From a virus, in the IMG/VR virus record IMGVR_UViG_3300030117_007551, positions 1 through 33,167 of that record: a DNA stretch of 33,167 nt; one strand, given 5' to 3'. Positions 16,804 to 32,075 of the stretch are shown here, one piece after another. Under the pieces are notes generated by a model, which was not told where the DNA came from, did not search any database, and saw only the letters and a program-made list of their open reading frames with translations. Every line of letters begins with the position of its first letter. Position 1 is the stretch's first letter. The translations under genes were made by a program, and so were the position numbers.

Positions 16804-17343
16804 ATGCCAGTAAAAGTAAGATCAGGTGGAGCATGGGTTCAAGTAGCAGGAGACGGTGCTGACGGACAAGATGGTGCTGGTGGTGATACTATACCAGTTG
16901 GTACGATTGTCATGTACAATGGAAACAGTGCTCCATCTGGATGGGCATTGTGTGATGGTGGTGGTGGAAGACCAGATTTAAGAGATAAATTTATTGTTGG
17001 TTCTGGTAATAGTTACAACAGAGGTGATCAAGGTGGTGCTGCAAATATAACACTAGCTACTAATAACATACCATCTCACACTCATGGTGCTGGTAACTTT
17101 GCTGCAGGATCACAAGGTTCTCACCAACATGACATAACAGACTCGTCATCTCAAGATAGTGGTGATGGATATTCTGGTTATCAACCTGGTGGTGGTGGTG
17201 AAGGTAGTAATAACATCTTTTCTAGTGTTAATGGTGCTCACACTCACTCTATTACAGGTACCTCTGGTGCCAACTCAACACAGGGTGCAGCTTTTAATAA
17301 TAGACCACCATACTATGCTATAACATTTATAATTAAAGTTTGA
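16804..17343 (+). CDS. Short tail fibre-like protein with phage tail-collar domain
   Basis: 179 residues. A short Gly-x-x stretch (GDGADGQDGAGG, residues 16-27) is followed by a tail-collar signature: IPVGTIVMYNG (30-40), APSGWALCDG (43-52), PDLRDKFIVG (57-66), and a C-terminal NRPPYYAITFIIKV. Three His-x-His pairs occur at 92-94, 107-109 and 146-148. In T4 gp12 (short tail fibre) and related fibres, His-x-His motifs from the three chains bind metal ions inside the trimer, so the same is inferred here. It is much shorter than T4 gp12 and probably represents mainly the receptor-proximal head. It follows the giant fibre by 18 nt and overlaps the next gene by one base, so it belongs to the same transcription unit. 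Confidence 0.85.
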   Translation: MPVKVRSGGAWVQVAGDGADGQDGAGGDTIPVGTIVMYNGNSAPSGWALCDGGGGRPDLRDKFIVGSGNSYNRGDQGGAANITLATNNIPSHTHGAGNFAAGSQGSHQHDITDSSSQDSGDGYSGYQPGGGGEGSNNIFSSVNGAHTHSITGTSGANSTQGAAFNNRPPYYAITFIIKV

Positions 17344-17837
17344 TGGGTAAAAATTTGACAAGTTTGACAGCAATAAATCGTATTAGAGAAAGAGTAGAGA
17401 GTTATAATTATAAACTTAAAAAAATAGTCACTTGTGAGACTCCAGAGATTGCACAAGCAATAATTAAAAAATTTGATAGATTAAAAAAAGATAATTTTGA
17501 TCGTGTATTAGTACCAGATTTTGATTATACAATTAAAGACAACATTATTAAGTACGACCAAGAATATATTAAGGGATATGCATTAGGAACAATTAGTAAG
17601 TATAGCCAAATAATTTATGAAGATGTTGTAATAAGGGAATCTGACTGGACATTTGATGATTATAGTATGGGTAATTTTGTAGTTGAAATTTATACTAATA
17701 AAATTTACATGGTGGATATATTAGCCTACTGTTATTATCCAGATGTTGACAGAAGACTTAAAGCATGGTATCTTTATAAAGAGAGGAATACAAGAGATCT
17801 AAAAAAATTATTAGATGATACCCAGAAAATATTGTAG
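17343..17837 (+). CDS. Unrecognised 164-residue protein with weak kinase-like motifs
   Basis: The frame could start at TTG 17340, but ATG 17343 (sharing one base with the TGA of the collar gene) is preferred. I do not recognise a family with confidence. Visible features are a basic N-terminal helix (residues 10-27), a segment YDQEYIKGYAL (71-81), then DDYSMGNFVVE (105-115) and KIYMVDILAY (120-129). The spacing Asp106-x4-Asn111 followed by a hydrophobic-Asp125 motif copies the catalytic loop and metal-binding Asp of the protein-kinase fold. However, the protein is too short for a full kinase, and there is no clear glycine loop or catalytic-loop His. It could be a degenerate phosphotransferase-like fold or an unrelated protein. 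It overlaps the next gene by 23 nt, which suggests coupled translation with the oxygenase that follows. Confidence 0.7.
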   Translation: MGKNLTSLTAINRIRERVESYNYKLKKIVTCETPEIAQAIIKKFDRLKKDNFDRVLVPDFDYTIKDNIIKYDQEYIKGYALGTISKYSQIIYEDVVIRESDWTFDDYSMGNFVVEIYTNKIYMVDILAYCYYPDVDRRLKAWYLYKERNTRDLKKLLDDTQKIL

Positions 17838-18501
17838 ACAACTTATTCCAACCGAGGAATGTAATCATATTGAAAATACTTTAAAAAATCCTTCTTGTCA
17901 ATGGATAGATGGTCTTCAAACTGTTAATATTGCAAATGAAAAATTTGATTGGACAGAAATAAAAAAAGTTGGTGAGACTTTTAATGAAGATTTATTTAAA
18001 ATAATCATGAATAATCTTGATGCTGACAAGGAATTTATTGCCATGTCATGCCCCAAGATCACAACAAATTCAATTTTTTCTAGAATTACTAGAGGTGGAT
18101 TCTATAAACCTCATGTTGATGATGTCTCCACATATCATTACAGCACTACGGTATTTTTAAATGACCCTGATGAGTATAAAGGGGGTGAATTGCAATTGTT
18201 AATTGATGGTGAAATGCATGATATAAAATTAAAGAAAGGATGGGCTGTAACTTACTCTACAGGTATACCACATCAAGTTAAAAAAGTTACGTCAGGAAAA
18301 AGATATGTTAGTGTCTTCTGGACAACTTCGAGAATACCTGATATAGTAGATAGAGAGTTATACTATGAATTATCAAAAATTGAAAAAAGTTTAAAAATTT
18401 CTTACAAAATACATGATAATGTTGATGATTTTATTAATGATCCTGTGAACAGAATTGTCACCTTAAAAAATTTATTGATACAAAAATATTTCGGTAACTA
18501 A
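17815..18501 (+). CDS. 2OG-Fe(II) oxygenase, PKHD-type hydroxylase-like
   Basis: 228 residues. The double-stranded beta-helix core shows FYKPHVDD (iron ligands His100 and Asp102), YHYSTTVFLNDP, then YKGGELQLL, and PHQVKKVTSGKRYVSVFW with the distal His153 and the 2-oxoglutarate-binding Arg163. This order and the 'GGEL' turn are those of PKHD/PiuC-type prolyl-hydroxylase-like dioxygenases, which couple oxidation of a substrate to decarboxylation of 2-oxoglutarate. All catalytic residues are present, so it is probably active. The C-terminal ~55 residues form a helical tail common in the family. The ATG lies inside the end of the preceding gene and no strong ribosome site is seen. The substrate is unknown; fibre proteins, host proteins and small molecules are all possible. 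Confidence 0.87.
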   Translation: MIPRKYCRQLIPTEECNHIENTLKNPSCQWIDGLQTVNIANEKFDWTEIKKVGETFNEDLFKIIMNNLDADKEFIAMSCPKITTNSIFSRITRGGFYKPHVDDVSTYHYSTTVFLNDPDEYKGGELQLLIDGEMHDIKLKKGWAVTYSTGIPHQVKKVTSGKRYVSVFWTTSRIPDIVDRELYYELSKIEKSLKISYKIHDNVDDFINDPVNRIVTLKNLLIQKYFGN

Positions 18502-18502
18502 G

Positions 18503-19117
18503 ATGATTTTTTCAGATACTCTTTATGATAAAATCTTTTTTGATTTTTTAATTTCAACTAAAATGAATGTATCTTTAAAAAAAATTAAAGATGAAATATA
18601 TGAGTTAAAGAATACTTCAAGAAATGATACAAGATCAGGGAGAAATAGTTTTCAGACTCCCTCCTGTCAAAACACTCATAAGGAGGAATTACAAAAATTA
18701 AAAAATTATGTTGTGCGTTTCACTAATGAATTTTTGAATGGTGATGAAAAATTTAGAGATCTAGAAGTTGATTGGTGTTCTTGGTGGATTAATATTAATC
18801 CTCCCAACGGATACAATGTGATTCATCAACATGGTAACGTTGAATTTGTGGGTAATTTTTATGTGCAAACTGGAAAAGATCATGGATTACTTGAAGTTCT
18901 CCGTAATGATGGATCTGTATATAATAAGATTGGTGTGAGAGACTCAAACTTTAAATGTGATTGTGAACTTGGAAGATTTTATCTATTGCCAGGTCATCTT
19001 TGGCATTATGTTTCTAATAACCACTCAGATGAAGATAGAATATCAATTTCATATAACATAGCATTAAAATCAAAAAGTTCAAGAAAATCAAAACCCCATC
19101 TCAATAAATTAAAATGA
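18503..19117 (+). CDS. Putative 2OG-Fe(II) oxygenase, Oxy_5-like, with HxH metal motif
   Basis: 204 residues. The C-terminal two-thirds resemble the 2OG-FeII_Oxy_5 type (PF13759): WCSWWININ, YNVIHQHGN (His108-x-His110), VGNFYVQT, then GRFYLLPGHLWHYV (His168), and EDRISISYN with Arg179 and Asn185. The usual iron-binding HxD appears as HxH, as in other proteins with this 'H.H...P..l.H.v..n....RisisfN' pattern, so iron binding is plausible but activity is less certain than for its neighbours. The N-terminal ~80 residues are charged and helical. The gene starts 1 nt after the previous stop and overlaps the next by an ATGA. The protein ending at 32075 has the same architecture. Confidence 0.75.
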   Translation: MIFSDTLYDKIFFDFLISTKMNVSLKKIKDEIYELKNTSRNDTRSGRNSFQTPSCQNTHKEELQKLKNYVVRFTNEFLNGDEKFRDLEVDWCSWWININPPNGYNVIHQHGNVEFVGNFYVQTGKDHGLLEVLRNDGSVYNKIGVRDSNFKCDCELGRFYLLPGHLWHYVSNNHSDEDRISISYNIALKSKSSRKSKPHLNKLK

Positions 19118-19797
19118 TAACAAACGATTCTCCACCACCAAATGTAAAGTTAAGTGATTATATAGTTGTTTTTGAAAAAACACTCACAAAAACTTTTTGT
19201 AGAAAATTATCTATGAGGATGAAAAATGATCATAGAAAACAAATGGGTGTTGTAGGTAGAAGTAAAAGTTTAAGAGAGGACATAAAAAATTCTTATGATT
19301 TACACCTCAGTCCTTTAGATGATTATAAAGAAGAAGACGATGTTCTTTTTAACTGTCTCTCAAAATACAAGGATCTTTATCTTGATGTTGTACAGGAGAA
19401 AACTGGAATAAATCCTAATTTTCTATCAGGATTTGGATATGGATACACTTCACCTAGTGATGTGTGCTCTGATACTGGATATCAACTTAAGATGTATAAG
19501 ACTGGTATGAGGTATAGATGGCATCATGATTACATTATAGACGCTTTGGAGGGGACAAGAGCATTGACTTATATTTGGTATTTAAATGATAATTTTGAGG
19601 GTGGTGAGACTGAATTTATAGATGGCACAATAATCAAACCAAAAACTGGTAACATGCTAATTTTTCCAGCATCTTGGTTATATGTTCATCGAGGTGTAGA
19701 AGTAACTAAGGGATATAAGGTAATTGCAACAGGGTGGTATCATCATCAACACCCAAAAACTTTTGATATAATGACTAACTCAAATCTGAATACATAA
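19114..19797 (+). CDS. 2OG-Fe(II) oxygenase, prolyl-4-hydroxylase-like
   Basis: 227 residues. The core reads QLKMYKTGMRYRWHHDY with His137-x-Asp139, then ALTYIWYLND, FEGGETEF, KPKTGNMLIFPASWLYVHRG with distal His192, and KGYKVIATGWYHH with Lys202 in the 2-oxoglutarate-binding position. This is the classic prolyl-4-hydroxylase-like arrangement ('YLN..FEGGET.F...G.ll.FP....H'). A complete facial triad implies an active dioxygenase. The N-terminal ~110 residues are not recognisable beyond a helix-rich segment. It overlaps the upstream gene by the ATGA at 19114. The substrate is not evident; the position between two structural blocks makes a virion-protein or cell-surface substrate possible but unproven. 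Confidence 0.86.
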   Translation: MITNDSPPPNVKLSDYIVVFEKTLTKTFCRKLSMRMKNDHRKQMGVVGRSKSLREDIKNSYDLHLSPLDDYKEEDDVLFNCLSKYKDLYLDVVQEKTGINPNFLSGFGYGYTSPSDVCSDTGYQLKMYKTGMRYRWHHDYIIDALEGTRALTYIWYLNDNFEGGETEFIDGTIIKPKTGNMLIFPASWLYVHRGVEVTKGYKVIATGWYHHQHPKTFDIMTNSNLNT

Positions 19798-19800
19798 ATA
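19793..19800 (+). promoter_or_regulatory. T4-late-type promoter box (CATAAATA)
   Basis: CATAAATA matches NATAAATA and lies 31 nt before the ATG at 19832, overlapping the stop of the oxygenase gene. The spacing leaves a leader of about 25 nt. Identical boxes occur before 25494, and GATAAATA before 5341. Confidence 0.55.
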
Positions 19801-19805
19801 GAACA

Positions 19806-19825
19806 TAGAATCATAGTAGAATCAT
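19806..19825 (+). repeat. Short direct repeat (TAGAATCAT x2) in the leader of the 1883-residue gene
   Basis: TAGAATCAT occurs at 19806-19814 and again at 19817-19825, an 11-nt period, in the 34-nt gap between genes. It lies just downstream of the late promoter box, so it would be in the 5' leader. It could be a protein-binding site or a chance duplication. Confidence 0.4.
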
Positions 19826-19831
19826 TGTGTC

Positions 19832-22800
19832 ATGCCACTGAATAAGTTAGATAATTTCCTAAAAAACGTAGAAGGTCGTATTCTTTATGTAAGTCCAAGT
19901 GATTTAGATGCAACTGATGCGATGTCAAATCAGGGTAATTCCCAGACAGCACCATTCAAAACTGTGCAGAGAGCACTGATTGAAGCAGCAAGATTTTCAT
20001 ACATTCAAGGAAACAATAATGATATAACAGAGAAAACAACAATATTGTTGATGCCTGGTGAGCATATCATTGATAACCGACCAGGATTTAGGATCCAAAA
20101 ATCGGGTAATAATGCTCAAATTGTAAATCAATCAGGATCTGTTGTATCCACAGATTCGATTAGTCTTAATTTAGAATCAGATTTTGATTTAAACAATAAA
20201 GATAATTTATTACATAAGTTTAATAGTGTAGAAGGTGGTGTCATTGTTCCTCGTGGAACTTCTATTGTAGGTCTTGATTTAAGAAAAACAAAAATCATAC
20301 CAAAATATGTTCCAAACCCCACAGATCCATCAGTTCCTAATTCTGCAATTTTTAGAATTACAGGTGCTTGTTATTTTTGGCAGTTCTCAATATTTGATGG
20401 TAAAGAAACTGAGTTAGTTTATACAGATAACACAACTTTTGATGGAGAAAAATTATGCACACCAACTTTTTCACATCATAAGTTGACAGTATTTGAATAT
20501 GCAGATGGTGTTAATAAAGATTTAACAACTTCTGGTATAACTGACTTGAATATGTATTATTATAAGCTTTCAATAGCTTATGGTACTGCGACAACAAATC
20601 GAAATATTATTGACAAGTTCCCTGCAAGCACTGATGGTTTTGCTGCAAGAAGACCAGAATTTGAGATTGTTGGTGCTTTTGCTGCAGATCCAATTAACAT
20701 AACAAGTCTTAAATCTGGAGATGGTTCAAATGTATCTCCTGTTGTTACTGTAACTACGCAACAAGATCATAAGTTAGATGTTGGAACACCTATTAAAATT
20801 TCAGGAGTTGTTCCATTAGATTATAATGTTTCATCAAAAGTTACAGCTGTAAGTGTAACTAATCCAAAAGAATTTACATATACTCTTGAATCTGTCCCTG
20901 ATGAATTGCCAGCAACTGCTACAAACGTAACTGGTGGAACTGTTACAGTAGAAACTGATACTGTTGGTGGTGCTTCACCATATATCTTTAACATATCACT
21001 AAGATCTGTTTATGGTATGAATGGTATGCATGCCGATGGTTCAAAAGCAACTGGTTTCCGTTCAATGGTTGTTGCACAGTTTACAGGTGTATCACTTCAG
21101 AAAGATGATCGTGCCTTTGTAAAATATAGTAAAACAGGTAGAAGTTACACTGGTCTTAGTATAGATCCAGCAGTATATGGTGAAACATTATCCTCTCAGT
21201 CATCTGCAGTCGATACTGACAAGGTATTTCATTTAGATTCTGATGCGATTTATAGGGATGGATGGCAAACAAGACATGTAAAAATATCAAATGATGCTGT
21301 ATTACAAATTGTATCTGTATTTGCAATTGGATATGGTGTTCATTTTGAAGCACAGTCAGGTTCTGATGCTTCTATCACTAACTCAAACTCCAACTTTGGT
21401 CAATTAGCACTGGTATCTGATGGATTTAAGAAACATGCCTTTGAAAAAGATGACAGAGCATTTATAACACATATAATTCCACCAAAGGCAATAACAACTG
21501 CCGAAGAGGAGATAGATTGGATTTCAATTGATATCGACAAAACAAAGGTTAAGGCTGACGATAAAAGATTATATCTTTTTGGATTTAATTCAGAAGATAT
21601 TAAACCCCCATCTGTAACACAGGGATTTCGTGTTGGTGCAAAAATAGATGATGAATTATTTGTAAATATATCTGGTCAAGAACGATCTGCAAAGATCTTC
21701 ATGCAAGAATTTGGAACAGGTGATCCATCTATAGTGAGTGTAAAAGAATCTAACATCAGTGAACCATCTGATGGTGTCTTTACCAGTTCTACAATACATA
21801 GATTATCAACTGGAGAGAAAGTAATCATTATTAGTGATAGTGGTGACTTGCCAGAAAATTTATCTGAAAAGACAACATATTTCGCAATTCGTGAATCAGG
21901 AACTCAATTTAAACTTGCATCATCAAAAACAAATGCTGACAATGAAGAGTTTATAAACGTATATAAAGGTACAAATCTAAGAGTTTTAAGTCGTGTGAGT
22001 GACAGAGACTCAGGAGAACTTGGTCATCCAGTTGAATTTGACCCTTCTAGTGTATCAGTTACTAGAAATGGTGTCACAACGACAGAAATTGCTGGATGGT
22101 ATATAAACGTAGAGGGAAATAATTCAATATTTAACAATATTTCTTCATTAACTGGTAGAACTGAACCTTCATATGTGAAGAGAAGATCTGACACAAGATC
22201 TCTTGATGATAAAATTTATAAAGTTAGACTTGCAATACCAAAGGAGATATCAAACTCAAAAAATCCAGAGAATGGATTTGTGATACAGGAATCGAGTTCA
22301 ACTGGATTTACATCAAATAATGATTTTACAAAGGATGATACTCTTACAAGAGCTGACTTTGGATTTAAGAGAAATCCTAGATTTATAAGCAGTTGCACAT
22401 ATAATAGTGGCACTGGAGTAATTACTATTACTGCTGAAAAACCACATAATTTGGCAACGGGTGATTTAGTTTCAATAAAAAATGTTAAAGATGCTGGAAC
22501 TGGTGGAAGTGCTCTTGGTGAGTTTGAAAAAGGATATAATGGAGAGTTCACTGTCACCAATATTGTTAATAACTTAACATTTGAGTATAAAACAACAAGA
22601 GATAATTTGGGTGCAAATGCGTCAAATAATTTTGATGTGAGAGATACGACTCTACCAAGATATGAGAGAACTGATCTAAAATCTAATATTTACTTGTTTA
22701 GAAATACGATTGTATCCGAGTACATTGATGGCACTCAAGATGGTGTGTATCAAGTATTTGCACTTAACTCTAGTAATTCCATTGAAGGTGAATATAGTAA

Positions 22801-25483
22801 TTTAAATTATAGTCAGAATGTTGTTGACTTATATCCTCAATTGGATAGGGATAATATAAATGAAAATCCACAAGCATCGACATCTTTTGCTGTTAGATCT
22901 CCTTTAGGACAAGTTGTCACGAATGATCCACTAAAAAGTCTTACAAGAGAAACTAATGATAAATTAATGAGATCCATAGGTGTGGGTGCAAGTATATTTT
23001 CATACACAGACAGTGCATCTACAGGTATAGTATCATTTACCCATGAACATAATTTTGCAGGTATTACGACTGCTACTCTCACTGGTGGTGCGAATTATAA
23101 TCCTTCGTCAGGAACTGCAACATATCATAATGTTAAAGTTTTCAAATCCACAACACAAAATGATAATAATTGGAACGGTACTTTAGCTAAAGTTATCGTA
23201 GATAATGGTGTTGTAAGTTCATTTGAGATAACTAATCCTGGTTCAGGATGGACAGCAGGAACTAGTAGTCGAGGTTATTTTGACACAACTCGAATTGGAT
23301 CTGGTGATGGTAATGCAAAAATAGATGGTTTAGCTGGAACTGGACTAACCGCACCTAACATTGGAATTTCAAGTGACTTAGTTCTTCAATTTACTGGAAT
23401 TGGAACACAACCCGATTCATATTTTAGATTGAAAGAGGTTACTGATAAGAAACAAATAGTTATTCACAAGTCTGCATCAGACACAAGTCTTCCATTACAA
23501 AATCAATATTGTTTCATTGTAAGTCCATCATCTAAAATAAGTGCCTCTGGTAATAATTATTCTGATGGTGTTAAAACTATCGTAACATCAGAACCTCATG
23601 GACTTGTTGCTGGAAATAAATTCCAAATAAACGATGCATCTAATGTTAATAAGGGATCATATATTGTTAAAACAAAAGTTAGTGTCACTTCATTCACATT
23701 TGAATCAACTTCTGATGTTAGTGTAGATAATGGATTTGTACTCAAGCATGGATTGTCTGCGAATGATGGTATATCTGATCAAGGTCAAGAAAATCTTGCG
23801 ATAAGGGGTGTTGATTTATTTGATATTGAACATGGAAAGTTACAAGTTGTAATGGGATCTTCAGATTCTACCTGTCAATTAGACTTATCTACCACAAGTA
23901 ATTTATTACAAAGATTCCCATATGGATCATATATTTTGATTGATGAAGAAATAATGAGGGTGTCTACAAATACAATTGAAGGTATTGATGAAAATCAAAT
24001 TCCAGTAATTCGTGGTATTTTTGGTACAGTTATTAAAGATCATGCGCTTGGTTCACTGGTCAAAAAGATAAAACCATTCCCGATACAATTTAACCGACCA
24101 TCTATTCTTAGAGCATCAGGTCATACATTTGAATATCTTGGTTATGGTCCTGGTAACTATTCAACTGCACTTCCACAAGTTCAGGTCAAAACAATTTCTG
24201 AGAAGGAAGAGTTCTTATCACAGTCACAGGAAAGAGCAGGTGGTGCCGTTGTTTACACTGGAATGAACAACAAAGGTGATTTCTATATTGGAAACCAGAA
24301 GAAATCTGCACTCACAGGTGAGGAGACATCTTTCGATACTCCAATACCATCAGTTACAGGTGAAAATCCTGGTAGATTGAGCGTTGTGTTTGATGAATCA
24401 ACAATTAAAGAAAGACTTGTAGTTGAAGGTGGTAAATCTAAAACATCATTATCTGAATTTGATGGTCCTGTTACATTTAATAATGAAGTTCAGATCAAAG
24501 AAAGTTCACTCAAAATTAAATCAACTACAGATTCAACTTCATCTACTACAGGATCTCTTGTTGTATCTGGGGGAGTTGGCATTGGTAAAACTGTTAATCT
24601 TCCTGATGATGCTGCAATAAAATTTGGTAATTCAGGAGATTTATTACAAATATTCCATAGTGAATCTCAAAGTACCATTCAGCAGGTAGGACTAGGAACT
24701 TTACAATTAAAGGGAGAAACTGTTAAGTTAATTCATAGTGGAAATGAACGTTTAAGAACCACTGGATATGGTGCCACAGTAACAGGTGACATATATGCCA
24801 CTAACTTCTATGGTAATGGTGCTGCATTAGAGGGTATTGATAACACTAAATTAGTTGATGATAATATTGCTACAAGAGCACAAGCAACGACATCTGGTGT
24901 TGTAATCACTGGAATTACTACAGTTAATGGTAATATACAACTCACTGCTGCAACCCCAGAAATAGAATTGAATGATGGAGGTCCAAGATTTAGAGTTCCA
25001 TCTGCAAATACACTTAGTATTCATACTGGTGGTGGACTCGATAGCACAGATAATGAAAAGATGCGTATTGATTCATCTGGTGTTCAAGTTTTATTTAATG
25101 ACACTGCAACTCTTGATGTTCAAAGCACACTTGTAAAAATTGGTGACCCATCTGAGGCTGATGTTACTTTGCGAGTTACAGGTGACATAGTTGCTTTCTC
25201 TAGTTCTGATAGAAACTTAAAAGAAAATATATCACCCATAACAAAAGCACTTGAAAAAGTTAACTCTATAAATGGAGTGACATTTACCAAAAAATTTGAC
25301 GGAACTCCACTCACAGGAGTTATTGCACAGGAAATTGATGCACTTGGTTTACCAGGTATCACAACTACAAGAAGTAGTGGATACATGGCAGTGGATTATG
25401 AGAAATTAGTTCCACTTTTAATTGAAGCTATTAAAGAGTTATCCACAAAGGTCGATGTGCTTGAAAACAACATAAATAATTAA
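19832..25483 (+). CDS. Large virion/tail fibre protein (1883 aa) with beta-helix-like N-terminus, repeated PHxL modules and S74 chaperone
   Basis: The N-terminus (about residues 19-53) has the capping pattern of pectin-lyase-like fibres (SPSDLDATDAMSNQG, then TAPFKTVQRALIEAARF). The body contains beta-rich segments and four modules built on 'HxL..G..V.I' at about residues 306, 650, 869 and 1253, for example AEKPHNLATGDLVSI and SEPHGLVAGNKFQI. A 'GYGPGNYSTALPQV' motif lies near 1436. A fibre section (KTTDST...GSLVVSGGVGIGKTV, then ERLRTTG) leads to the S74 chaperone with Ser1792 and Lys1797 at +5. This S74 domain is a near paralogue of the one in the 3814-residue fibre, sharing NISPI..ALEKVNS, GVIAQE and PLLIEAIKEL. 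Autocleavage would release about 92 residues. It is probably a structural component of the tail or baseplate periphery; the exact position cannot be read from sequence. Confidence 0.88.
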   Translation: MPLNKLDNFLKNVEGRILYVSPSDLDATDAMSNQGNSQTAPFKTVQRALIEAARFSYIQGNNNDITEKTTILLMPGEHIIDNRPGFRIQKSGNNAQIVNQSGSVVSTDSISLNLESDFDLNNKDNLLHKFNSVEGGVIVPRGTSIVGLDLRKTKIIPKYVPNPTDPSVPNSAIFRITGACYFWQFSIFDGKETELVYTDNTTFDGEKLCTPTFSHHKLTVFEYADGVNKDLTTSGITDLNMYYYKLSIAYGTATTNRNIIDKFPASTDGFAARRPEFEIVGAFAADPINITSLKSGDGSNVSPVVTVTTQQDHKLDVGTPIKISGVVPLDYNVSSKVTAVSVTNPKEFTYTLESVPDELPATATNVTGGTVTVETDTVGGASPYIFNISLRSVYGMNGMHADGSKATGFRSMVVAQFTGVSLQKDDRAFVKYSKTGRSYTGLSIDPAVYGETLSSQSSAVDTDKVFHLDSDAIYRDGWQTRHVKISNDAVLQIVSVFAIGYGVHFEAQSGSDASITNSNSNFGQLALVSDGFKKHAFEKDDRAFITHIIPPKAITTAEEEIDWISIDIDKTKVKADDKRLYLFGFNSEDIKPPSVTQGFRVGAKIDDELFVNISGQERSAKIFMQEFGTGDPSIVSVKESNISEPSDGVFTSSTIHRLSTGEKVIIISDSGDLPENLSEKTTYFAIRESGTQFKLASSKTNADNEEFINVYKGTNLRVLSRVSDRDSGELGHPVEFDPSSVSVTRNGVTTTEIAGWYINVEGNNSIFNNISSLTGRTEPSYVKRRSDTRSLDDKIYKVRLAIPKEISNSKNPENGFVIQESSSTGFTSNNDFTKDDTLTRADFGFKRNPRFISSCTYNSGTGVITITAEKPHNLATGDLVSIKNVKDAGTGGSALGEFEKGYNGEFTVTNIVNNLTFEYKTTRDNLGANASNNFDVRDTTLPRYERTDLKSNIYLFRNTIVSEYIDGTQDGVYQVFALNSSNSIEGEYSNLNYSQNVVDLYPQLDRDNINENPQASTSFAVRSPLGQVVTNDPLKSLTRETNDKLMRSIGVGASIFSYTDSASTGIVSFTHEHNFAGITTATLTGGANYNPSSGTATYHNVKVFKSTTQNDNNWNGTLAKVIVDNGVVSSFEITNPGSGWTAGTSSRGYFDTTRIGSGDGNAKIDGLAGTGLTAPNIGISSDLVLQFTGIGTQPDSYFRLKEVTDKKQIVIHKSASDTSLPLQNQYCFIVSPSSKISASGNNYSDGVKTIVTSEPHGLVAGNKFQINDASNVNKGSYIVKTKVSVTSFTFESTSDVSVDNGFVLKHGLSANDGISDQGQENLAIRGVDLFDIEHGKLQVVMGSSDSTCQLDLSTTSNLLQRFPYGSYILIDEEIMRVSTNTIEGIDENQIPVIRGIFGTVIKDHALGSLVKKIKPFPIQFNRPSILRASGHTFEYLGYGPGNYSTALPQVQVKTISEKEEFLSQSQERAGGAVVYTGMNNKGDFYIGNQKKSALTGEETSFDTPIPSVTGENPGRLSVVFDESTIKERLVVEGGKSKTSLSEFDGPVTFNNEVQIKESSLKIKSTTDSTSSTTGSLVVSGGVGIGKTVNLPDDAAIKFGNSGDLLQIFHSESQSTIQQVGLGTLQLKGETVKLIHSGNERLRTTGYGATVTGDIYATNFYGNGAALEGIDNTKLVDDNIATRAQATTSGVVITGITTVNGNIQLTAATPEIELNDGGPRFRVPSANTLSIHTGGGLDSTDNEKMRIDSSGVQVLFNDTATLDVQSTLVKIGDPSEADVTLRVTGDIVAFSSSDRNLKENISPITKALEKVNSINGVTFTKKFDGTPLTGVIAQEIDALGLPGITTTRSSGYMAVDYEKLVPLLIEAIKELSTKVDVLENNINN
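25471..25478 (+). promoter_or_regulatory. T4-late-type promoter box (CATAAATA)
   Basis: A second CATAAATA, again over the final codons of the upstream gene (ending 25483) and 15 nt before the ATG at 25494. A start site 6-7 nt downstream of the box would give a very short leader of about 8-9 nt with only AGAAG as a weak ribosome site, so it may instead augment read-through transcription. Confidence 0.45.
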
Positions 25484-25493
25484 AAAAGAAGTA

Positions 25494-27503
25494 ATGTCTA
25501 ATTATAACAAATCATACAATTTTACGAACGGACTACAGGTAGACGACAGCAATTTTGTTGTCACCGCAAACGGATTGGTTGGTATCGGAACTACGGTGCC
25601 TCAAAAAACTTTAGATGTTCGAGGAAATGCACAGATAAATGGTGGACTAGATTTAAATAGTTTAAATGTCACTGGTATAGTAACTGTTGGTGCTGGAATC
25701 ACACTTGATGCCACGAGTGGAATTATAACCGCAACTAAATTTATTGGAGATGCTTCTAGTCTAACAAATATTGTTGCAATTTCCACAATTGGTTTGATAG
25801 CAAATGCTGGATCTTTATCAACAACTGCAAAACTTGGTATTGGATCTATAACACCAACAAAACAATTAGATGTCATAGGAGACTCAGAATTTAATGGTGA
25901 TGTAAATATATCTGGTATCTTAACCACAGGAGAGGGAGTTAAAATTCTCTCTGGTGGAATAAATGCATCTGGTGTTATAACTGCCCCATCATTAGTGATA
26001 GATGATTACATATATCATGCAGGAGATACGAATACTTTTATTGGATTTGAAAGTAATGACACCATTAGATTCAACACAAATAATTCTGATAAGTTAAAAA
26101 TTAATGCTTCAGGACATTTAATTCTTTTAGATGATCAAGACACTTACATTTATCATCCCTCTGAGGATATAATATCAGTTGTAACTGGTGGTAGTGAAAG
26201 ATTTAGTGTCTCTGGTACTGGTGTTACAGTAACTGGAGAAGTAAGTGCAACAGGTGCTATAAGAGCTACATCTTTTTCTGGACACAGTGGTGTACCCGCA
26301 GACTTTTCAAATGGGTTAATTGCAACAGCATCCACATTCACTGATGATGTTGAGTTTCATGGTGTCAGTGGAATTACATCAATAAGTTTTGATAAGTCAG
26401 ATAATTCTCTGAAGTTCGTTGATGATGCAAAATTAAAATTTGGTAGTACCGATGGTCTTGAGATTTATCATAGTCAAAATTTAGCAGGTACTAATGATAG
26501 CTACATAGATTCTTCAGCAAGAAATCTTTATGTAAGATTGAATACAGGGACAGACAATGGTGGAAATATTGCACTTCAAGCAAAGAAAGATGAGCATGGT
26601 GTTTTAATTGAAGATGATGCTGGTGTAAAATTATATTTTAATGGTGATCTTCAATTTGAAACAATCGGAGCAGGTGCATCAGTTTATGACCAGATAAATG
26701 TAGCAAGGTTGAATGGAGGAACATCAGGTTTATCATCACACTTTGGTTCATTAAGATATGGTAATGAATCTGGATCTTCACCATATAGTACAAGAAAGTC
26801 ACTGGATATAATAAACACTGATAGTGGAAATATTAACTTCTATATTGATGCAGAGAATAGGGGAAGTGCTGGTGACTTCCATTGGCATAAAGGATTTAAT
26901 AATGATCGGTTAATGACCTTAACCAGCACAGGTCTTCTTGGTATAGGGGAGACACAACCGAATTCGACACTCCATGTAAATGGTATTTCAACAGTGACGG
27001 GTGCTTCTTATGTTAATGGTAATTTCTATGCAAAATCAAGTGTAGAAATTGATGGTAGTGCAGATATTCAAGGAAATTTAAGTGTAAATGGTACTTTTAC
27101 TTTAAATACTACTTTAAATGCAGATGTAATTGGAGGTGTAACTGGAGATTTAGCAGGTAATGTTGTTGCAACAGGAAATACCTCAATATTTCATCAAGTA
27201 GGTATAAAAACAGATTTAGATAAAGTACTTTCTTCAGCTGCTCTTGATGTATCACAAGGCAGTGCAGTATTTAAAAATGTTGGTATTGGTTCAACTTCAC
27301 CCGACTGTATATTAGATGTTTCAGGAGGGACATCCGCACCATCTAAGAAATTTATTTTACTACCAAAAGTGTCTGCTGGTGGTACATCTGTTTTACAGTC
27401 AGATAGTGTAGAGGGAGGAGCATTAATTTATAATACCACACTTAGAAAATTACAATTTTTTAATGGAAATAATTGGGAAACAGTTACTAGTGTTGAGGCA
27501 TAA
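25494..27503 (+). CDS. Fibre protein of the VGIGT family (669 aa), without S74 domain
   Basis: Starts MSNYNKSYNFTNGLQV and carries the same modules as the giant fibres: LVGIGTTVPQKTLDVRG, LGIGSITPTKQLDV, GIGETQPNSTLHVNG and NVGIGSTSPDCILDVSGG. Between them are beta-rich stretches with FGSTDGLEIYHS and LFKFGS-like repeats. It ends in KFILLPKVSAGG, then GGALIYNTTLRKLQFFNGN and WETV, a closing motif often seen at the C-terminus of phage and bacterial fibre proteins. There is no S74 chaperone, so trimerisation must use another device, or it is an adaptor that joins the adhesin encoded next. The DNA repeat GGTATCGGAACT also occurs here at about 25580. It ends 5 nt before the next start. Confidence 0.85.
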   Translation: MSNYNKSYNFTNGLQVDDSNFVVTANGLVGIGTTVPQKTLDVRGNAQINGGLDLNSLNVTGIVTVGAGITLDATSGIITATKFIGDASSLTNIVAISTIGLIANAGSLSTTAKLGIGSITPTKQLDVIGDSEFNGDVNISGILTTGEGVKILSGGINASGVITAPSLVIDDYIYHAGDTNTFIGFESNDTIRFNTNNSDKLKINASGHLILLDDQDTYIYHPSEDIISVVTGGSERFSVSGTGVTVTGEVSATGAIRATSFSGHSGVPADFSNGLIATASTFTDDVEFHGVSGITSISFDKSDNSLKFVDDAKLKFGSTDGLEIYHSQNLAGTNDSYIDSSARNLYVRLNTGTDNGGNIALQAKKDEHGVLIEDDAGVKLYFNGDLQFETIGAGASVYDQINVARLNGGTSGLSSHFGSLRYGNESGSSPYSTRKSLDIINTDSGNINFYIDAENRGSAGDFHWHKGFNNDRLMTLTSTGLLGIGETQPNSTLHVNGISTVTGASYVNGNFYAKSSVEIDGSADIQGNLSVNGTFTLNTTLNADVIGGVTGDLAGNVVATGNTSIFHQVGIKTDLDKVLSSAALDVSQGSAVFKNVGIGSTSPDCILDVSGGTSAPSKKFILLPKVSAGGTSVLQSDSVEGGALIYNTTLRKLQFFNGNNWETVTSVEA

Positions 27504-27508
27504 GAATA

Positions 27509-28600
27509 ATGGCATTACAAGCATCAGGAAACTCAATATCATTTTCTCAAATCGAAACCGAATTTGGACAGAATACTGGTAGAACTCTTGGTAATTATCG
27601 GATGAATGATCTCAATATTGGATCTTTAACTGAGGTTTCATTATCAAGAGATGGTTGTGGTATAAATGCAAATAGTAATATTCCAGTCGATGATAATGAA
27701 ATAAAATTTAGTGATTTTTACAATGCGAAACAAAATATAATTATTGATTGTTTTAGTAGTAATCAAAATAGAATCAATGCCAAGAATGATAAGTATAATG
27801 CTGCATCTTCTTCTGGGAATTATGTTGTTGTCGGACCAGGTTCAAAACCATCAAATACAAATGGTAAAAAAGTAATTATACATGTAACAAAATTAATTGG
27901 TAGTGCTACTGGTAATGCAACCAATGTAGCATTAAGAACGGGATCTTTTGATACTGGAACTGATCTCTTAATAGAAGTTGCAACTGGTGGTGTGATTGCA
28001 GGTGCTGGTGGTAATGGTGGTAATGGTCGTGAGTCAGCGTCAGGATTACCAGGATCGGATGGTACAAGTGGATTAGGTATTGATTATAATGGAACGAAGA
28101 TACAAACTACTGGCACTGGAACGATCATCGCTGGATTTGGTGGTGGTGGAGCAGGTGGTGGTGGAGAGACAAAGAAAGAAGGAGGTACATGGGGAGGAGG
28201 AAGAGGACCTGAAGTGAAAGCTGGTGGTGGTGGAGGTGGCGGTGGCCAAGGAATACCTGGTGGTTCTGGAGGTACAAGTCCCGAAGGAAATGCACATGCT
28301 GGAGCAGCAGGAGATCATGAAGAAGCAGGAAATGGAGGGGAAGGAGCAGAAGTTGCTAGTCGTGGTGATGCAACTATAAATGGTGGACAAGGTGGACAAG
28401 GTGGTTGGATAGGAGATTTCACTGCTGATACAGGAGCAAATGCTTTTTTAAGTGGTAATAGACACGAAAATCCTTCCACCACAGCTGGAGGAATTGGAGG
28501 TTCAAATGGTGCAGCAATAAGAACTGGTTCTGGTATAAACTTTACTTTGATTGGTACTCCAACTATAAATGGTGATACAAATGCTACAGGTGTAACTTAA
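27509..28600 (+). CDS. Glycine-rich adhesin-like receptor-recognition protein
   Basis: 363 residues. The N-terminus (ISFSQIETEFGQN, then IKFSDFYNAK, residues 10-74) is a short attachment module common in marine and enteric phage tip proteins. Residues 75-157 form a beta-rich segment. Residues 158-334 are extremely glycine-rich (blocks such as GAGGNGGNG, GFGGGGAGGGG, AGGGGGGGGQG and NGGQGGQGG) separated by variable linkers, ending in a short beta tail. This layout resembles the gp38-type adhesins of T-even phages, in which glycine-rich motifs pack as a polyglycine-II lattice and the variable loops contact the receptor. GAGG at 27495-27498 may act as the ribosome site. The position straight after a fibre without S74 fits a tip adhesin. 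The homology is by architecture, not by clear alignment, and the receptor is unknown. Confidence 0.75.
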   Translation: MALQASGNSISFSQIETEFGQNTGRTLGNYRMNDLNIGSLTEVSLSRDGCGINANSNIPVDDNEIKFSDFYNAKQNIIIDCFSSNQNRINAKNDKYNAASSSGNYVVVGPGSKPSNTNGKKVIIHVTKLIGSATGNATNVALRTGSFDTGTDLLIEVATGGVIAGAGGNGGNGRESASGLPGSDGTSGLGIDYNGTKIQTTGTGTIIAGFGGGGAGGGGETKKEGGTWGGGRGPEVKAGGGGGGGGQGIPGGSGGTSPEGNAHAGAAGDHEEAGNGGEGAEVASRGDATINGGQGGQGGWIGDFTADTGANAFLSGNRHENPSTTAGGIGGSNGAAIRTGSGINFTLIGTPTINGDTNATGVT

Positions 28601-29227
28601 TTATTTTTTCTTCTCTTTACAATTAATAAAAGAAGTAATTGCATATCTACCCCATCCATCATAGTAATCAGAATCTTCAATACTAACCTCTGATACACCA
28701 TGTTCTACCCAACCTGGCATAATTATGACAGAGTTGTTGTTACATTCATACTCATAATTATATTTTGGGAAGATTAGATTTCCACCTTTAAATTTTTTAG
28801 GTTCTCTGAAAAAATAAGAAAATGCGAGAAAATGCATAGTATAATCAGTATGCGGTTCATAATATTCACCATCATGATAATATCTTACTTTGGTAATATC
28901 GTCATTACACCATTTAAATATACTAAAACTACCACCAATATTTGATATTGTATTGAGAATTTCTTTATCAAATAATTTTCTGTTGACTTTTAAAATATTT
29001 GAAACTTCTCTCTGACCAGAGTATAAACCATCTAGTTGTAGTGCAAGGGCATTTGTTGACCCAACTATACCACCGTAATCTTTTGCAGGAACTAATTTAT
29101 TAGGATATGTGTAGAAATCTAATTCTTGCCATATTAATTTTAATTCTTCCTCGTTATAAAAATTATCAATAATAACGTGTGGGAATGGGTCAGTGTTTAA
29201 AATAGCTTGTATATCTTCTTTTTCCAT
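28601..29227 (-). CDS. 2OG-Fe(II) oxygenase (leftward)
   Basis: 208 residues from ATG 29227 (MEKEDIQAIL). A GTG at 29242 would add five residues, but it lies upstream of the transcription start expected from the promoter at 29245-29272, so the ATG is preferred. The core shows YYEPHTDYTM with His126-x-Asp128, FSYFFREP, FKGGNLIFP, IIMPGWVEHGVSEV with distal His176, and GRYAITSFI with Arg194. All facial-triad and 2-oxoglutarate residues are present. The N-terminus has FPHVIIDNFYNEEEL, the usual entry to this oxygenase type. It is the only leftward gene in the window. Its stop codon directly abuts the stop of the adhesin gene (28598-28600), leaving no room for a terminator between them. Confidence 0.84.
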   Translation of the reverse strand: MEKEDIQAILNTDPFPHVIIDNFYNEEELKLIWQELDFYTYPNKLVPAKDYGGIVGSTNALALQLDGLYSGQREVSNILKVNRKLFDKEILNTISNIGGSFSIFKWCNDDITKVRYYHDGEYYEPHTDYTMHFLAFSYFFREPKKFKGGNLIFPKYNYEYECNNNSVIIMPGWVEHGVSEVSIEDSDYYDGWGRYAITSFINCKEKKK

Positions 29228-29244
29228 ACAACAGGTTTTCACTT

Positions 29245-29272
29245 ATTATAACATATATATTATACTTGTCAA
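29245..29272 (-). promoter_or_regulatory. Leftward sigma70-type extended -10 promoter
   Basis: Read on the minus strand: -35 TTGACA (29272-29267, full consensus), 16-nt spacer, TGT directly before -10 TATAAT (29250-29245). This is close to ideal for host sigma70 polymerase and typical of phage early promoters. The predicted start near 29238 gives a leader of about 11 nt to the ATG at 29227. The -35 overlaps that of the divergent rightward promoter. Confidence 0.75.
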
Positions 29273-29294
29273 ACAAGAATTTTTTTGATATAAT
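29266..29294 (+). promoter_or_regulatory. Rightward sigma70-type extended -10 promoter, probably leaderless
   Basis: -35 TTGTCA (29266-29271), 17-nt spacer, TGA directly before -10 TATAAT (29289-29294). The expected transcription start (29300-29302) coincides with the ATG at 29301, so the first mRNA would be leaderless. It drives the oxygenase-halogenase-oxygenase-oxygenase run up to 32075. Confidence 0.75.
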
Positions 29295-29300
29295 ATTCGT

Positions 29301-29819
29301 ATGAAATTTGTTTTAACTAAAGATAATTATTTTGACAATGCAGAAGAATTGAGAAATTTAGCATTATCTACTAGATTTTATACTCCTGAAGAAATGACAT
29401 ACGAGGTCGGGTGGAGAGGATATCGAACTGATGAGTTGAGAGAGTTGAACAACGACATGTTAGAAATTTGTTGTCAAAAAATTAGAGATGAATTGATGAA
29501 ATTTTATGAATTTAAAATTGATAAAGAAGAGGGTAATTTTTATTTTCATATTGCATCGACTGCTACAAAAAATACTCTAGAAGACTTTGATTTAAATAAA
29601 TTTCATACTGATAATTCTAGATATGCAGGTATTGTTTATCTTAATCACAATCCACCACCAAAAACTGGAACTACAATTGTAATTAATGACCAATCTAATG
29701 ATATAGAAAATAAATTTAATAGATTTGTGACATATCCTTCCTTTTATACTCATGCTCCAACAGATTTATTTGGTGATGATATGGAAACAGGGAGATTAAC
29801 TCTTTCGTTTTTCATATGA
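29301..29819 (+). CDS. Putative 2OG-Fe(II) oxygenase, small DSBH protein
   Basis: 172 residues. The N-terminal half is helical (NAEELRNLALS, residues 13-23). The C-terminal half has the beta-helix pattern: LNKFHTDNSRYAGIVYLN with His102-x-Asp104, KTGTTIVIND, YPSFYTHAP with His151, and METGRLTLSFFI with Arg165. The four key residues are present with the normal order, though the spacing between the second and third ligands is short, as in many phage oxygenases. The start is fixed by a promoter whose expected start site falls on this ATG. It overlaps the halogenase gene by ATGA. The substrate is unknown, and immediate coupling with the halogenase suggests they act on the same material. Confidence 0.75.
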   Translation: MKFVLTKDNYFDNAEELRNLALSTRFYTPEEMTYEVGWRGYRTDELRELNNDMLEICCQKIRDELMKFYEFKIDKEEGNFYFHIASTATKNTLEDFDLNKFHTDNSRYAGIVYLNHNPPPKTGTTIVINDQSNDIENKFNRFVTYPSFYTHAPTDLFGDDMETGRLTLSFFI

Positions 29820-30904
29820 AATATAAAATTGCTATTATTGGTGCTGGAAATGCAGGATGTATTACTGCCCTGCATTTTTATAAACATCTTCGAGATAGTG
29901 GTGACATAGATAAAATTGAGATTACGATATATCATAGTCCAGAATACCACCCCATCGAGAAAGTAGGGCAGGGAACTACTTTGTTAGTTCCAGAATTGAT
30001 TGCTGATGCACTAGATATAAATTGGTACAATAATCCCATAGGTGCTACGTTTAAAAGTGGTATTTTATATGAGAATTGGGGAAAAAAACAAGATAAAATT
30101 TTTCATCCATTTTTATGGCACGATATGGGTATACATTTTGTTCCTAAAAAGTTATCAGAATTAGTTTTGAAGTTTGGTTTTTTTAATATTGTAGAAAAAA
30201 CCATAACAAATCCAGAGAAAGAGATTGACGCAAATGTTATATTTGATTGTAGAGGAAGACATAATCGTGATTTGGAAAATTATGAGGACTTAGTTAATCC
30301 TCTAAATTCTGTTTTATTATCTAAAAAATTTGAGAGAGATACTGGATTAATCTATACAAAATGTGTTGCAACTCCAAATGGATGGACATTTATCATCCCA
30401 AATCAAGATAGTGTGTCTTATGGATATTTGTTTAATAATACCATAACAAAAAAACAAGATGCGATAGATGATTTTACTACTAGATTTAATTTAGATTATG
30501 TTACAGATACACTTGAGTTTAGTAATTATGTTGCAAAGGATTTCAGAGTTGGAGAGAGAACTATACTTCAGGGTAATATGTATGGATTTATTGAACCGAT
30601 GGAAGCAACAGCAGTGGGTATGTACCATAGGTTATGTAAATGTGCTTGGGATGGAATATTTGATAAAGTTTCATTTGAAAAGTGCAACAAAAATATTAAA
30701 AGTGAAATGATAGAGACACAGAATATTGTTTTGTGGCATTATCAGTATGGGTCAAAGTTTGACACTCCCTTTTGGGAATATGCAAAATCTTTACCATTCA
30801 GTCCAGATCAAAGATTTAATGATGTTGTAAATGGAAATATAGATGAAGAATATGGACAATGGAAAAAATGGAATTTTGATAATTGGAAGATGGGGGTAGA
30901 GTGA
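29816..30904 (+). CDS. Flavin-dependent tryptophan-halogenase-like protein (compact)
   Basis: 362 residues. N-terminal FAD-binding motif AIIGAGNAG (Gly9-x-Gly11-x-x-Gly14). GATFKSGILYENW places Lys80 where the tryptophan halogenases PrnA/RebH have catalytic Lys79. GWTFIIP (Trp190-x-Phe192-x-Ile-Pro195) matches the halogenase signature WxWxIP except that the second Trp is Phe. GFIEPMEATAVGMYH (258-271) matches the conserved Glu-Pro-Leu-Glu-Ser/Ala-Thr segment near the chloride/flavin site. Known family members use FADH2, O2 and halide to make a hypohalous species that travels to the Lys. Family members are usually about 500-540 residues, so this one lacks much of the C-terminal substrate-binding region. 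No flavin reductase is visible nearby, so reduced flavin would have to come from the host. It could also be a monooxygenase-like relative. ATGA and TGATG overlaps tie it to both neighbours. Confidence 0.85.
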   Translation: MKYKIAIIGAGNAGCITALHFYKHLRDSGDIDKIEITIYHSPEYHPIEKVGQGTTLLVPELIADALDINWYNNPIGATFKSGILYENWGKKQDKIFHPFLWHDMGIHFVPKKLSELVLKFGFFNIVEKTITNPEKEIDANVIFDCRGRHNRDLENYEDLVNPLNSVLLSKKFERDTGLIYTKCVATPNGWTFIIPNQDSVSYGYLFNNTITKKQDAIDDFTTRFNLDYVTDTLEFSNYVAKDFRVGERTILQGNMYGFIEPMEATAVGMYHRLCKCAWDGIFDKVSFEKCNKNIKSEMIETQNIVLWHYQYGSKFDTPFWEYAKSLPFSPDQRFNDVVNGNIDEEYGQWKKWNFDNWKMGVE

Positions 30905-31524
30905 TGTTTGAGTTAAATGATAATTTAGAAATAAAAAAAGAATTATTTTATGAGTCAATAATCTATACGATTGACAATTTCTATAAGTATCCACAAGATA
31001 TTAAAAATTATTTGTTCGGTGAACCAGCACCATTACATAAGATTAATGAGACACCATCTAATAATAATGTTTATTTTGAAGATAGAAGATTGTTTAAAGA
31101 TGATGAGAGATTAAATTCTGTCGTTGATTTTTTAGGAAGTTTGGTATCTCAAAAACCTTGGACTTACGAGATAATTACAAATCAAACTAAATTTTACAAT
31201 CATGAATTTAATGATATAGATAACTGTTACTGGTGGCCACATCTTGATGAAGGATATAATGGAATTGTATATTTTAATGATGATGAGGAAAATGGTACAA
31301 ACATTTACTATGAAAGAAATGAACAAAAAATATTAACGGAGCATCACCAACCTTGGAGACCAAAGGGAGACTTTAGAGTACTGAAACATCTTCAACCAAA
31401 ATTTAATAGATTAGTATTCTTTGATGGTTATAAATTCTTACATGGTATGAATATTACAAATAGAAGATATTTTTCAGATGAATATCGAAACAATCAAGTT
31501 TTTTTCTATAAACAGGAGAATTAA
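30904..31524 (+). CDS. DSBH protein, probable 2OG-oxygenase-like
   Basis: 206 residues from ATG 30904, which overlaps the halogenase stop (TGATG); an ATG at 30883 would add seven residues inside the upstream gene and is less likely. The pattern is CYWWPHLDEGYNGIVYFND with His113-x-Asp115, ENGTNIYYERN, then RLVFFDGYKFLHGMNI with His180, followed by NRRYFSDEYRNNQVFFY with Arg188 or Arg196 as candidate 2-oxoglutarate ligand. The architecture resembles the DUF6445-type oxygenase-like proteins ('H.DE....lvYLn....GTn.y ... f.g...H'). An insert at about 137-160 (charged, with EHHQPWRPKGD) separates the strands. It is probably a non-haem iron enzyme, but the assignment is by pattern only. Confidence 0.7.
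   Translation: MFELNDNLEIKKELFYESIIYTIDNFYKYPQDIKNYLFGEPAPLHKINETPSNNNVYFEDRRLFKDDERLNSVVDFLGSLVSQKPWTYEIITNQTKFYNHEFNDIDNCYWWPHLDEGYNGIVYFNDDEENGTNIYYERNEQKILTEHHQPWRPKGDFRVLKHLQPKFNRLVFFDGYKFLHGMNITNRRYFSDEYRNNQVFFYKQEN
31514..31518 (+). promoter_or_regulatory. Shine-Dalgarno AGGAG
   Basis: AGGAG lies 8 nt before the ATG at 31527, inside the last codons of the upstream gene. It is the only clear ribosome site in the rightward oxygenase-halogenase run. Confidence 0.7.
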
Positions 31525-31526
31525 TT

Positions 31527-32075
31527 ATGTTTAGTATACCTTTTTATCAATACGAGATTAAAAATTGGCAAGAAAAGAAACAAAAATTGCTAGAAATATG
31601 TTCAACGATTGACTTCAAGAATCAAGATATAGGTAATAGGAAACTCAATAGTTATAATGCAGATAATCTTTATACTGATTATCGAAGTGGTAATCATAAT
31701 TTATATCGAGATGATGTGATAAGCACATTAAAAGATGAATTACATAATTTTAAGAAAGATGCAAAATTAGATTTTATGAGGGTAGGAGAGGTTTGGTTTC
31801 AACAATATTATAAGACACAATTTCATCAACCACATAATCATGGTAATTGTGGATATAGTTCAGTTACATATATTAAATTTAATAAAGATAAACATGTACC
31901 CACTATCTTTATAGCACCATTTACAGACCCAAGAGGTGATATAATAAACTTTGTACCAAAAGTGGATGAGGGTCATATTATCTTTTTTCCATCAATGATT
32001 ACTCATTATGTGCAACCTAATAAGTCAAATGATATAAGAATAATACTTTCATTCAATGTAAATTTGTGTAATTGA
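31527..32075 (+). CDS. Putative 2OG-Fe(II) oxygenase, Oxy_5-like, with HxH metal motif
   Basis: 182 residues. It starts MFSIPFYQYEI, the usual opening of this family, in which the N-terminus begins with a 'pvy.y.i' strand. The core is VGEVWFQQYYKTQFHQPHNH (His100, His103, His105), GYSSVTYIKFN, then EGHIIFFPSMITHYVQPN with His160, and NDIRIILSFN with Arg171 and Asn177. The family resembles PF13759 and the protein at 18503-19117. The place of the usual HxD is taken by a His-rich HxxHxH cluster. It is the last gene of the rightward enzyme run and is followed by a terminator at 32182-32206. Confidence 0.75.
   Translation: MFSIPFYQYEIKNWQEKKQKLLEICSTIDFKNQDIGNRKLNSYNADNLYTDYRSGNHNLYRDDVISTLKDELHNFKKDAKLDFMRVGEVWFQQYYKTQFHQPHNHGNCGYSSVTYIKFNKDKHVPTIFIAPFTDPRGDIINFVPKVDEGHIIFFPSMITHYVQPNKSNDIRIILSFNVNLCN

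Follow-up and report, generated by a model that had tools for sequence, protein, structure and literature searches.

2-Oxoglutarate (2OG)-Fe(II) oxygenases are numerous in marine cyanophages, and the question of their role dates back to at least 2010. In the accessible text of the literature on auxiliary metabolic genes of the Kyanoviridae (PMC3037559, PMC9602691), 24 such genes are reported for phage S-SCSM1, and the cyanophage oxygenases are treated as metabolic or repair genes, a pairing with adhesins going unmentioned there. Here, we describe such a pairing in IMGVR_UViG_3300030117_007551, a 33,167-base record of an uncultured marine cyanophage-like virus (the window, by which the whole of this stretch is meant), whose oxygenases resemble those of the described cyanophages in their Pfam families and high copy number. 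Fibre-type genes span positions 222-28600 and a UvsW-like helicase gene occupies the right end; amid the fibre genes lie two islands that together hold seven open reading frames (ORFs) for 2OG-Fe(II) oxygenases of the double-stranded beta-helix (DSBH) kind and one flavin-dependent halogenase, all with profile support. In the open-access literature that we searched, no earlier description of an adhesin-oxygenase pairing was found. A near-fixed partnership with an adhesin provides these enzymes with concrete candidate substrates, the fibre tip or the receptor, and makes it possible to address the substrate by mass spectrometry after cloning two genes. It also argues against DNA repair, a role deduced earlier from the adjacency of uvsW.

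The adhesin in question finds its counterpart in gp38 of phage PP01 (T2-type phages, PDB 9V85), a polyglycine-helix tip protein; adhesins of this type sit on the tip of gp37 and bind a receptor in the outer membrane. The glycine-rich product of 27509-28600 (plus strand), modelled with AlphaFold2 at a mean predicted local distance difference test score (pLDDT) of 83.6, gave a sole match when compared with the PDB by Foldseek, namely the receptor-binding domain of PP01 gp38 (9v85; E-value 4.9e-7; TM-score 0.58 on the target), and it is accordingly predicted to be a gp38-like adhesin with a polyglycine-rich receptor-binding domain fold. Its N-terminal attachment part appears different from that of T2-type gp38, and oxygenase genes come directly after it. 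A second parallel is offered by the oad-llp pair of phage T5 (PMC4728585), in which a receptor-binding gene sits beside an early-expressed gene acting on the receptor; in the window, judged by motifs alone, an early-type promoter likewise lies beside a late fibre unit. In T5, FhuA is blocked by a lipoprotein, Llp, whereas the partner in the window is a predicted oxygenase. In three relatives (L035-L037), the fibre gene and the adhesin gene are separated by an additional gene whose product has about 560 amino acids.

Relatives were pulled from a set of viral contigs with five seeds (the halogenase, the enzyme encoded at 28601, the N-terminus of the adhesin, the adhesin-adjacent enzyme and the PHROG 529 fibre), the best 80 matches to seeds forming the locus sets, and DSBH genes were called with iterated profiles started from the seven DSBH proteins, which converged at about 390 ORFs and were confirmed in Pfam on samples. 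Because psbA/psbD-type genes are present on related large contigs, we take the relatives of the window to be cyanophages. Among the pooled relatives, a DSBH gene was found directly after 131 of 141 distinct adhesins. When loci were selected by the adhesin, the first, second and third downstream positions carried a DSBH gene in 58/65, 50/63 and 19/57 cases, respectively, and the position directly upstream in 3/67. The search from the adhesin-adjacent enzyme led back to an adjoining adhesin in 58 of 78 loci and to one at most three genes away in 66, the remainder comprising six loci at a contig edge and six without an adhesin. The slot behind the adhesin is filled by several DSBH subfamilies in either orientation, the subfamily tracks the C-terminal type of the adhesin, and about ten changes are needed when the adjacency label is placed on a tree. 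Judged from gene content and order, the downstream island is a conserved pairing of a gp38-like adhesin with one to three predicted oxygenases directly behind it, and this pairing is the firm part of our analysis.

The helicase gene was considered as the true neighbour of the oxygenases, in line with a repair function. Where adhesin and uvsW have at least three genes between them, the gene on the adhesin side was a DSBH gene in 31/32 cases as against 13/32 for that on the uvsW side, and uvsW was rejected as the main cause of the arrangement; since the DSBH genes follow the adhesin and not uvsW, the older DNA-repair reading built on that adjacency is undercut. The same count bears on the wider proposal that the enzymes serve host metabolism, lowering 2OG so that the NtcA response stays on, or perform AlkB-like DNA repair, a proposal made for cyanophages in the accessible text of PMC3037559 and taken up in that of the review PMC2984593. 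Orthologues of the 28601 enzyme beside replication genes would fit a repair or replication role, and the early-type promoters of the window are in keeping with it; nevertheless, a draw-down of 2OG needs no fixed position beside an adhesin and the modelled 28601 enzyme resembles prolyl hydroxylases. We regard this explanation as improbable, and as the least probable of those weighed here.

All seven small DSBH ORFs, listed in an earlier note on this DNA, were borne out by an ORF check and by Pfam profiles, and on sequence grounds they are members of the 2OG-Fe(II) oxygenase superfamily, for which catalysis dependent on Fe(II) and 2OG is predicted. The upstream island comprises, on the plus strand, a PiuC-like (PKHD-type hydroxylase) enzyme at 17815-18501 (PF13640, 1.2e-11; PDB 3dkq, PiuC, ~1e-13), a PF13759-type enzyme at 18503-19117 (3e-13) and a prolyl-4-hydroxylase-like enzyme at 19114-19797 (PF13640, 1.1e-17; prolyl 4-hydroxylases in the PDB, ~1e-6). 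The downstream island opens with a minus-strand PF13640 gene at 28601-29242, which abuts the adhesin gene convergently, and continues on the plus strand with a DUF6445-type gene overlapping the halogenase (29301-29819; PF20043 above the cut-off, PF13640 weak), a DUF6445-like gene (30883-31524; PHROG 1644, 7.6e-30) and another PF13759-type gene (31527-32075; 6.8e-12; PHROG 81, 1.5e-36). The PF13640 cut-off was exceeded by 17815, 19114 and 28601 and that of PF13759 by 18503 and 31527, while the 30883 gene lay just under the PF20043 cut-off (22.3 versus 24 bits) with a weak PF13640 match as well; its start could be either the TTG at 30883, the first possible, or the internal ATG at 30904. A double-stranded beta-helix fold was displayed by the model of the 28601 enzyme (pLDDT 90.7), the other six being assigned by profile, and the closest PDB folds to this model were prolyl hydroxylases (6t8m, E-value 4e-9; prolyl 4-hydroxylases; PiuC). 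Among solved structures, PiuC-type PKHD hydroxylases and prolyl 4-hydroxylases come nearest to 17815, 19114 and the 28601 model.

The earlier note had stated that most of the enzymes retain the residues HxD...H...R/K, and indeed the iron motif is H-x-D in five of the seven (17815, 19114, 28601, 29301 and 30883) and H-x-H in the two PF13759 members (18503 and 31527), with the distal H and R/K kept in 7/7. Its count of at least four sequence types stands only in part, as Pfam recognizes three families, yet clustering at 38% identity places every one of the seven in a separate cluster. Its view that none of the genes is a recent copy of another was right: pairwise similarity is near nil (best pair 22% identity, E-value 7e-5), by which recent duplication is ruled out. 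Seven DSBH genes within 14 kb are well above chance when set against the baseline of about 3% (10/307 genes) in one related contig of 236 kb; both islands are also present in the nearest relative, a contig of 54.7 kb, and the flanking genes are, as had been claimed, of fibre type by their PHROG matches. Elsewhere among the relatives, three contigs (L071, L073 and L075) carry about eight oxygenase genes in one run in which no adhesin was detected, relatives of 17815, 18503, 19114 and 28601 included. Orthologues of the 28601 enzyme at L050 (7998-8612), L041, L046, L048, L055-L057 and L060 lie in a replication neighbourhood, where the adjoining genes read as thyX, phoH-like, gp59, gp33 and gp32.

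How, then, should the pairing be understood? Our favoured reading, held tentatively and at somewhat below even chances, is that the enzymes adjacent to the adhesin are its partner hydroxylases, acting on the fibre tip. By its sequence, the locus is a module for the fibre tip, with 2OG-Fe(II) oxygenase genes coming after those for predicted host-recognition proteins. On the favoured reading, the enzymes beside the adhesin would be protein hydroxylases that modify the adhesin loops or the capped fibre inside the infected cell; hydroxylation might tune the stability of the fibre tip or its binding to the receptor; and adhesin and enzyme might travel between phages as one cassette. We rank this reading first on three grounds: the enzyme has a structural protein as its partner, its fold is that of a protein hydroxylase, and same-strand enzymes can be late-expressed. 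Possible too, and put forward with somewhat more reserve, is a dedicated adhesin-tailoring system in marine cyanophages, in which each gp38-like adhesin would have hydroxylases of its own, adding to host recognition a post-translational chemical layer on top of variation in sequence.

Promoter motifs, called as consensus matches and thus giving counts of motifs and not expression data, bear on the choice between fibre tip and receptor. The late-type motif ATAAATA stands just before three fibre genes of the window (those starting at 5341, 19832 and 25494) and precedes 72/85 homologues of the 25494 gene. Between the 28601 enzyme and the halogenase operon (29243-29300), two sigma-70-type promoters were recognized that stand back to back, their -35 elements overlapping (consensus match 12/12 on the minus strand and 11/12 on the plus strand), and this overlapping divergent arrangement is kept in most relatives inspected. 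Across relatives, the motifs at the halogenase and at convergent enzymes are sigma-70-type and not late; enzymes that come after the adhesin on its own strand have motifs of both types, the late type in 25/80 versus 2.4 in shuffled sequence, an approximately tenfold excess. Early-type promoters in the window, along with the T5 llp-oad precedent, are the reason for ranking close behind a reading in which the targets of the adjacent oxygenases, early in infection, are the receptor or host surface recognized by the adhesin, blocking superinfection and the loss of progeny on debris in the manner of T5 Llp, whose gene sits beside oad and whose role is to block the receptor (PMC4728585, PMC9586334). 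Such an activity would account for the pairing with one adhesin type as well as for co-diversification with the receptor-binding domain, and it agrees with the promoters of the window's clade, early-type and divergent on the enzyme and the halogenase operon, with the late motif on the fibre genes. A cytoplasmic oxygenase, however, needs 2OG, Fe(II) and a reductant and would therefore have to modify receptor precursors before their export; moreover, the late-type motif does occur at same-strand enzymes of other clades, in the proportion just given, and 28601 orthologues are found away from adhesins too. Action on the receptor appears to us rather unlikely.

Co-diversification was pronounced: with uvsW distance removed, the distances among adhesins and among their adjacent enzymes gave a partial r of 0.77 (p 0.001), and the adjacent enzyme co-diversified more closely with the receptor-binding part of the adhesin (0.80) than with its N-terminus (0.54). 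Several observations nevertheless weigh against an enzyme devoted to the fibre tip. In a linked-gene control, two neighbouring oxygenases compared with each other reached a partial r of 0.93, and therefore a linked cassette alone could explain the co-diversification without functional specificity, which weakens it as proof of function. The seeds came partly from DSBH loci and many of the contigs are related. No oxygenase stands beside the adhesin in the contigs of L108-L110, L118, L135, L139, L141, L152 and L153, and a search of cultured phages with the adhesin N-terminus matched two single-cell virus records, neither with an oxygenase directly after the adhesin. The proline of a G-x-P-x-G motif is conserved in adhesins with and without an enzyme, and as a single explanatory substrate it is unsupported. 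In the window itself, the 28601 gene runs towards the adhesin gene from an early-type promoter, and the halogenase operon is early-type where the fibre genes are late-type. Furthermore, 28601 orthologues also occur in replication loci with no fibre in view; the enrichment near the anchor fibre in cultured Kyanoviridae is only twofold, about one third of their DSBH genes lying there; and no enzyme of this kind is named among the identified virion proteins in the proteome paper on S-SCSM1, a phage with 24 of these genes, although 13 of the detected proteins had no known function. As a separate observation, the variable loops are strongly basic (net charge +5 to +15) in three oxygenase-less adhesins, those of L135, L118 and G003 (L108-L110), and near neutral in adhesins with a neighbouring oxygenase; the two oxygenase-less adhesins of L152 and L153, in contrast to the three, are not basic.

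Some of these results would be expected if the fibre region were a recombination hot spot and the oxygenases abundant cargo, in which case the neighbourhood would be uninformative about the substrate. Linked genes co-diversify equally, and other cargo genes (talC, CP12, cpeT, petE and gnd) flank the same fibre region in S-ShM2. Among 14 cultured Kyanoviridae with a PHROG 529 anchor, 51 of 150 DSBH genes lie within 16 kb of that fibre, compared with 24.4 expected, an excess seen in 11/14 genomes; the remainder lie elsewhere. A hot spot should be mixed, yet the first slot downstream of the adhesin is a DSBH gene in roughly 90% of cases and the upstream slot in 3/67, and that same downstream slot is filled by different DSBH subfamilies in different orientations. 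Cargo without a bearing on the substrate is, for us, a doubtful account of the pairing. In cultured Syn9, two halogenases and a run of DSBH genes come after the fibres, and S-ShM2 is arranged similarly.

The upstream island is not fixed in the same manner. The PHROG 529 fibre has a DSBH gene immediately ahead of it in 12/76 loci, and collar genes have one immediately behind them in 9/32, the background in those loci being 38/454; these values are above background and far from fixed, and an upstream island as tight as the downstream one is unsupported. The earlier question of whether the oxygenases go with fibre genes across relatives thus has a strongly positive answer beside the glycine-rich adhesin and only a weakly positive one for this island. 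All fibre genes here are on the plus strand. Ahead of the island are a tail fibre protein with a chaperone-like C-terminal region (222-5303) and a very long tail fibre protein of 3814 amino acids (5341-16785; ATAAATA at 5296-5302), both with PHROG tail fibre matches, and a tail-collar-domain fibre tip protein (16804-17343; PF07484 above the cut-off; PHROG 8469 and 1800). Behind it come the tail fibre of the PHROG 529 family (19832-25483; late-type motif at 19794-19800) and a further tail fibre protein (25494-27503; PHROG 3269, 8.7e-35; late-type motif at 25472-25478). A small protein of unknown function, encoded at 17340-17837 on the plus strand and overlapping both neighbours, has homologues in four relatives that were found; in each of these it comes behind a collar gene, and in three of them ahead of a 17815-like DSBH gene.

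The halogenase that had been noticed beside the oxygenases is a real ORF (29816-30904, plus strand; PF04820, 4.9e-34), encoding a short flavin-dependent enzyme of 362 amino acids with the flavin motif GxGxxG as GAGNAG at residues 9-14; in the alignment, K80 is invariant and E263 nearly invariant, and the W-x-W-x-I-P motif reads W190-x-F192-x-I-P, F replacing the second W. It shares PF04820 and the catalytic K and E with VirX1 (PDB 6qgm), RebH and PrnA, viral members of this family being known; those enzymes, however, are about 500-550 amino acids long with W-x-W-x-I-P, whereas that of the window is short, has W-x-F-x-I-P and overlaps DUF6445-type oxygenases. At least one oxygenase neighbour accompanies the halogenase in 25/37 cases, a 29301-type gene lies directly upstream of it in several relatives, and a scan with 29301 found one relative, in the usual arrangement. 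In one bacterial genome, that of Rheinheimera sp. SA_1, 3/3 DUF6445 genes have a tryptophan-halogenase gene no more than about 1 kb away, which parallels the position of 29301 in the window, although bacterial halogenases of that type are full length, unlike the window's. These neighbours and the Rheinheimera pairs suggest that the halogenase operon may stand apart as a unit and have its own target; halogenase and overlapping DUF6445-type oxygenases would constitute a second linked set, with the same surface or a small molecule as a possible target. A bacterial origin of the halogenase was considered and set aside, the genome scan giving four weak relatives (23-29% identity) beside which no oxygenase was found. 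Additionally, DNA methyltransferase-like genes are located between the halogenase and uvsW in five relatives (L010, L015, L024, L035 and L040).

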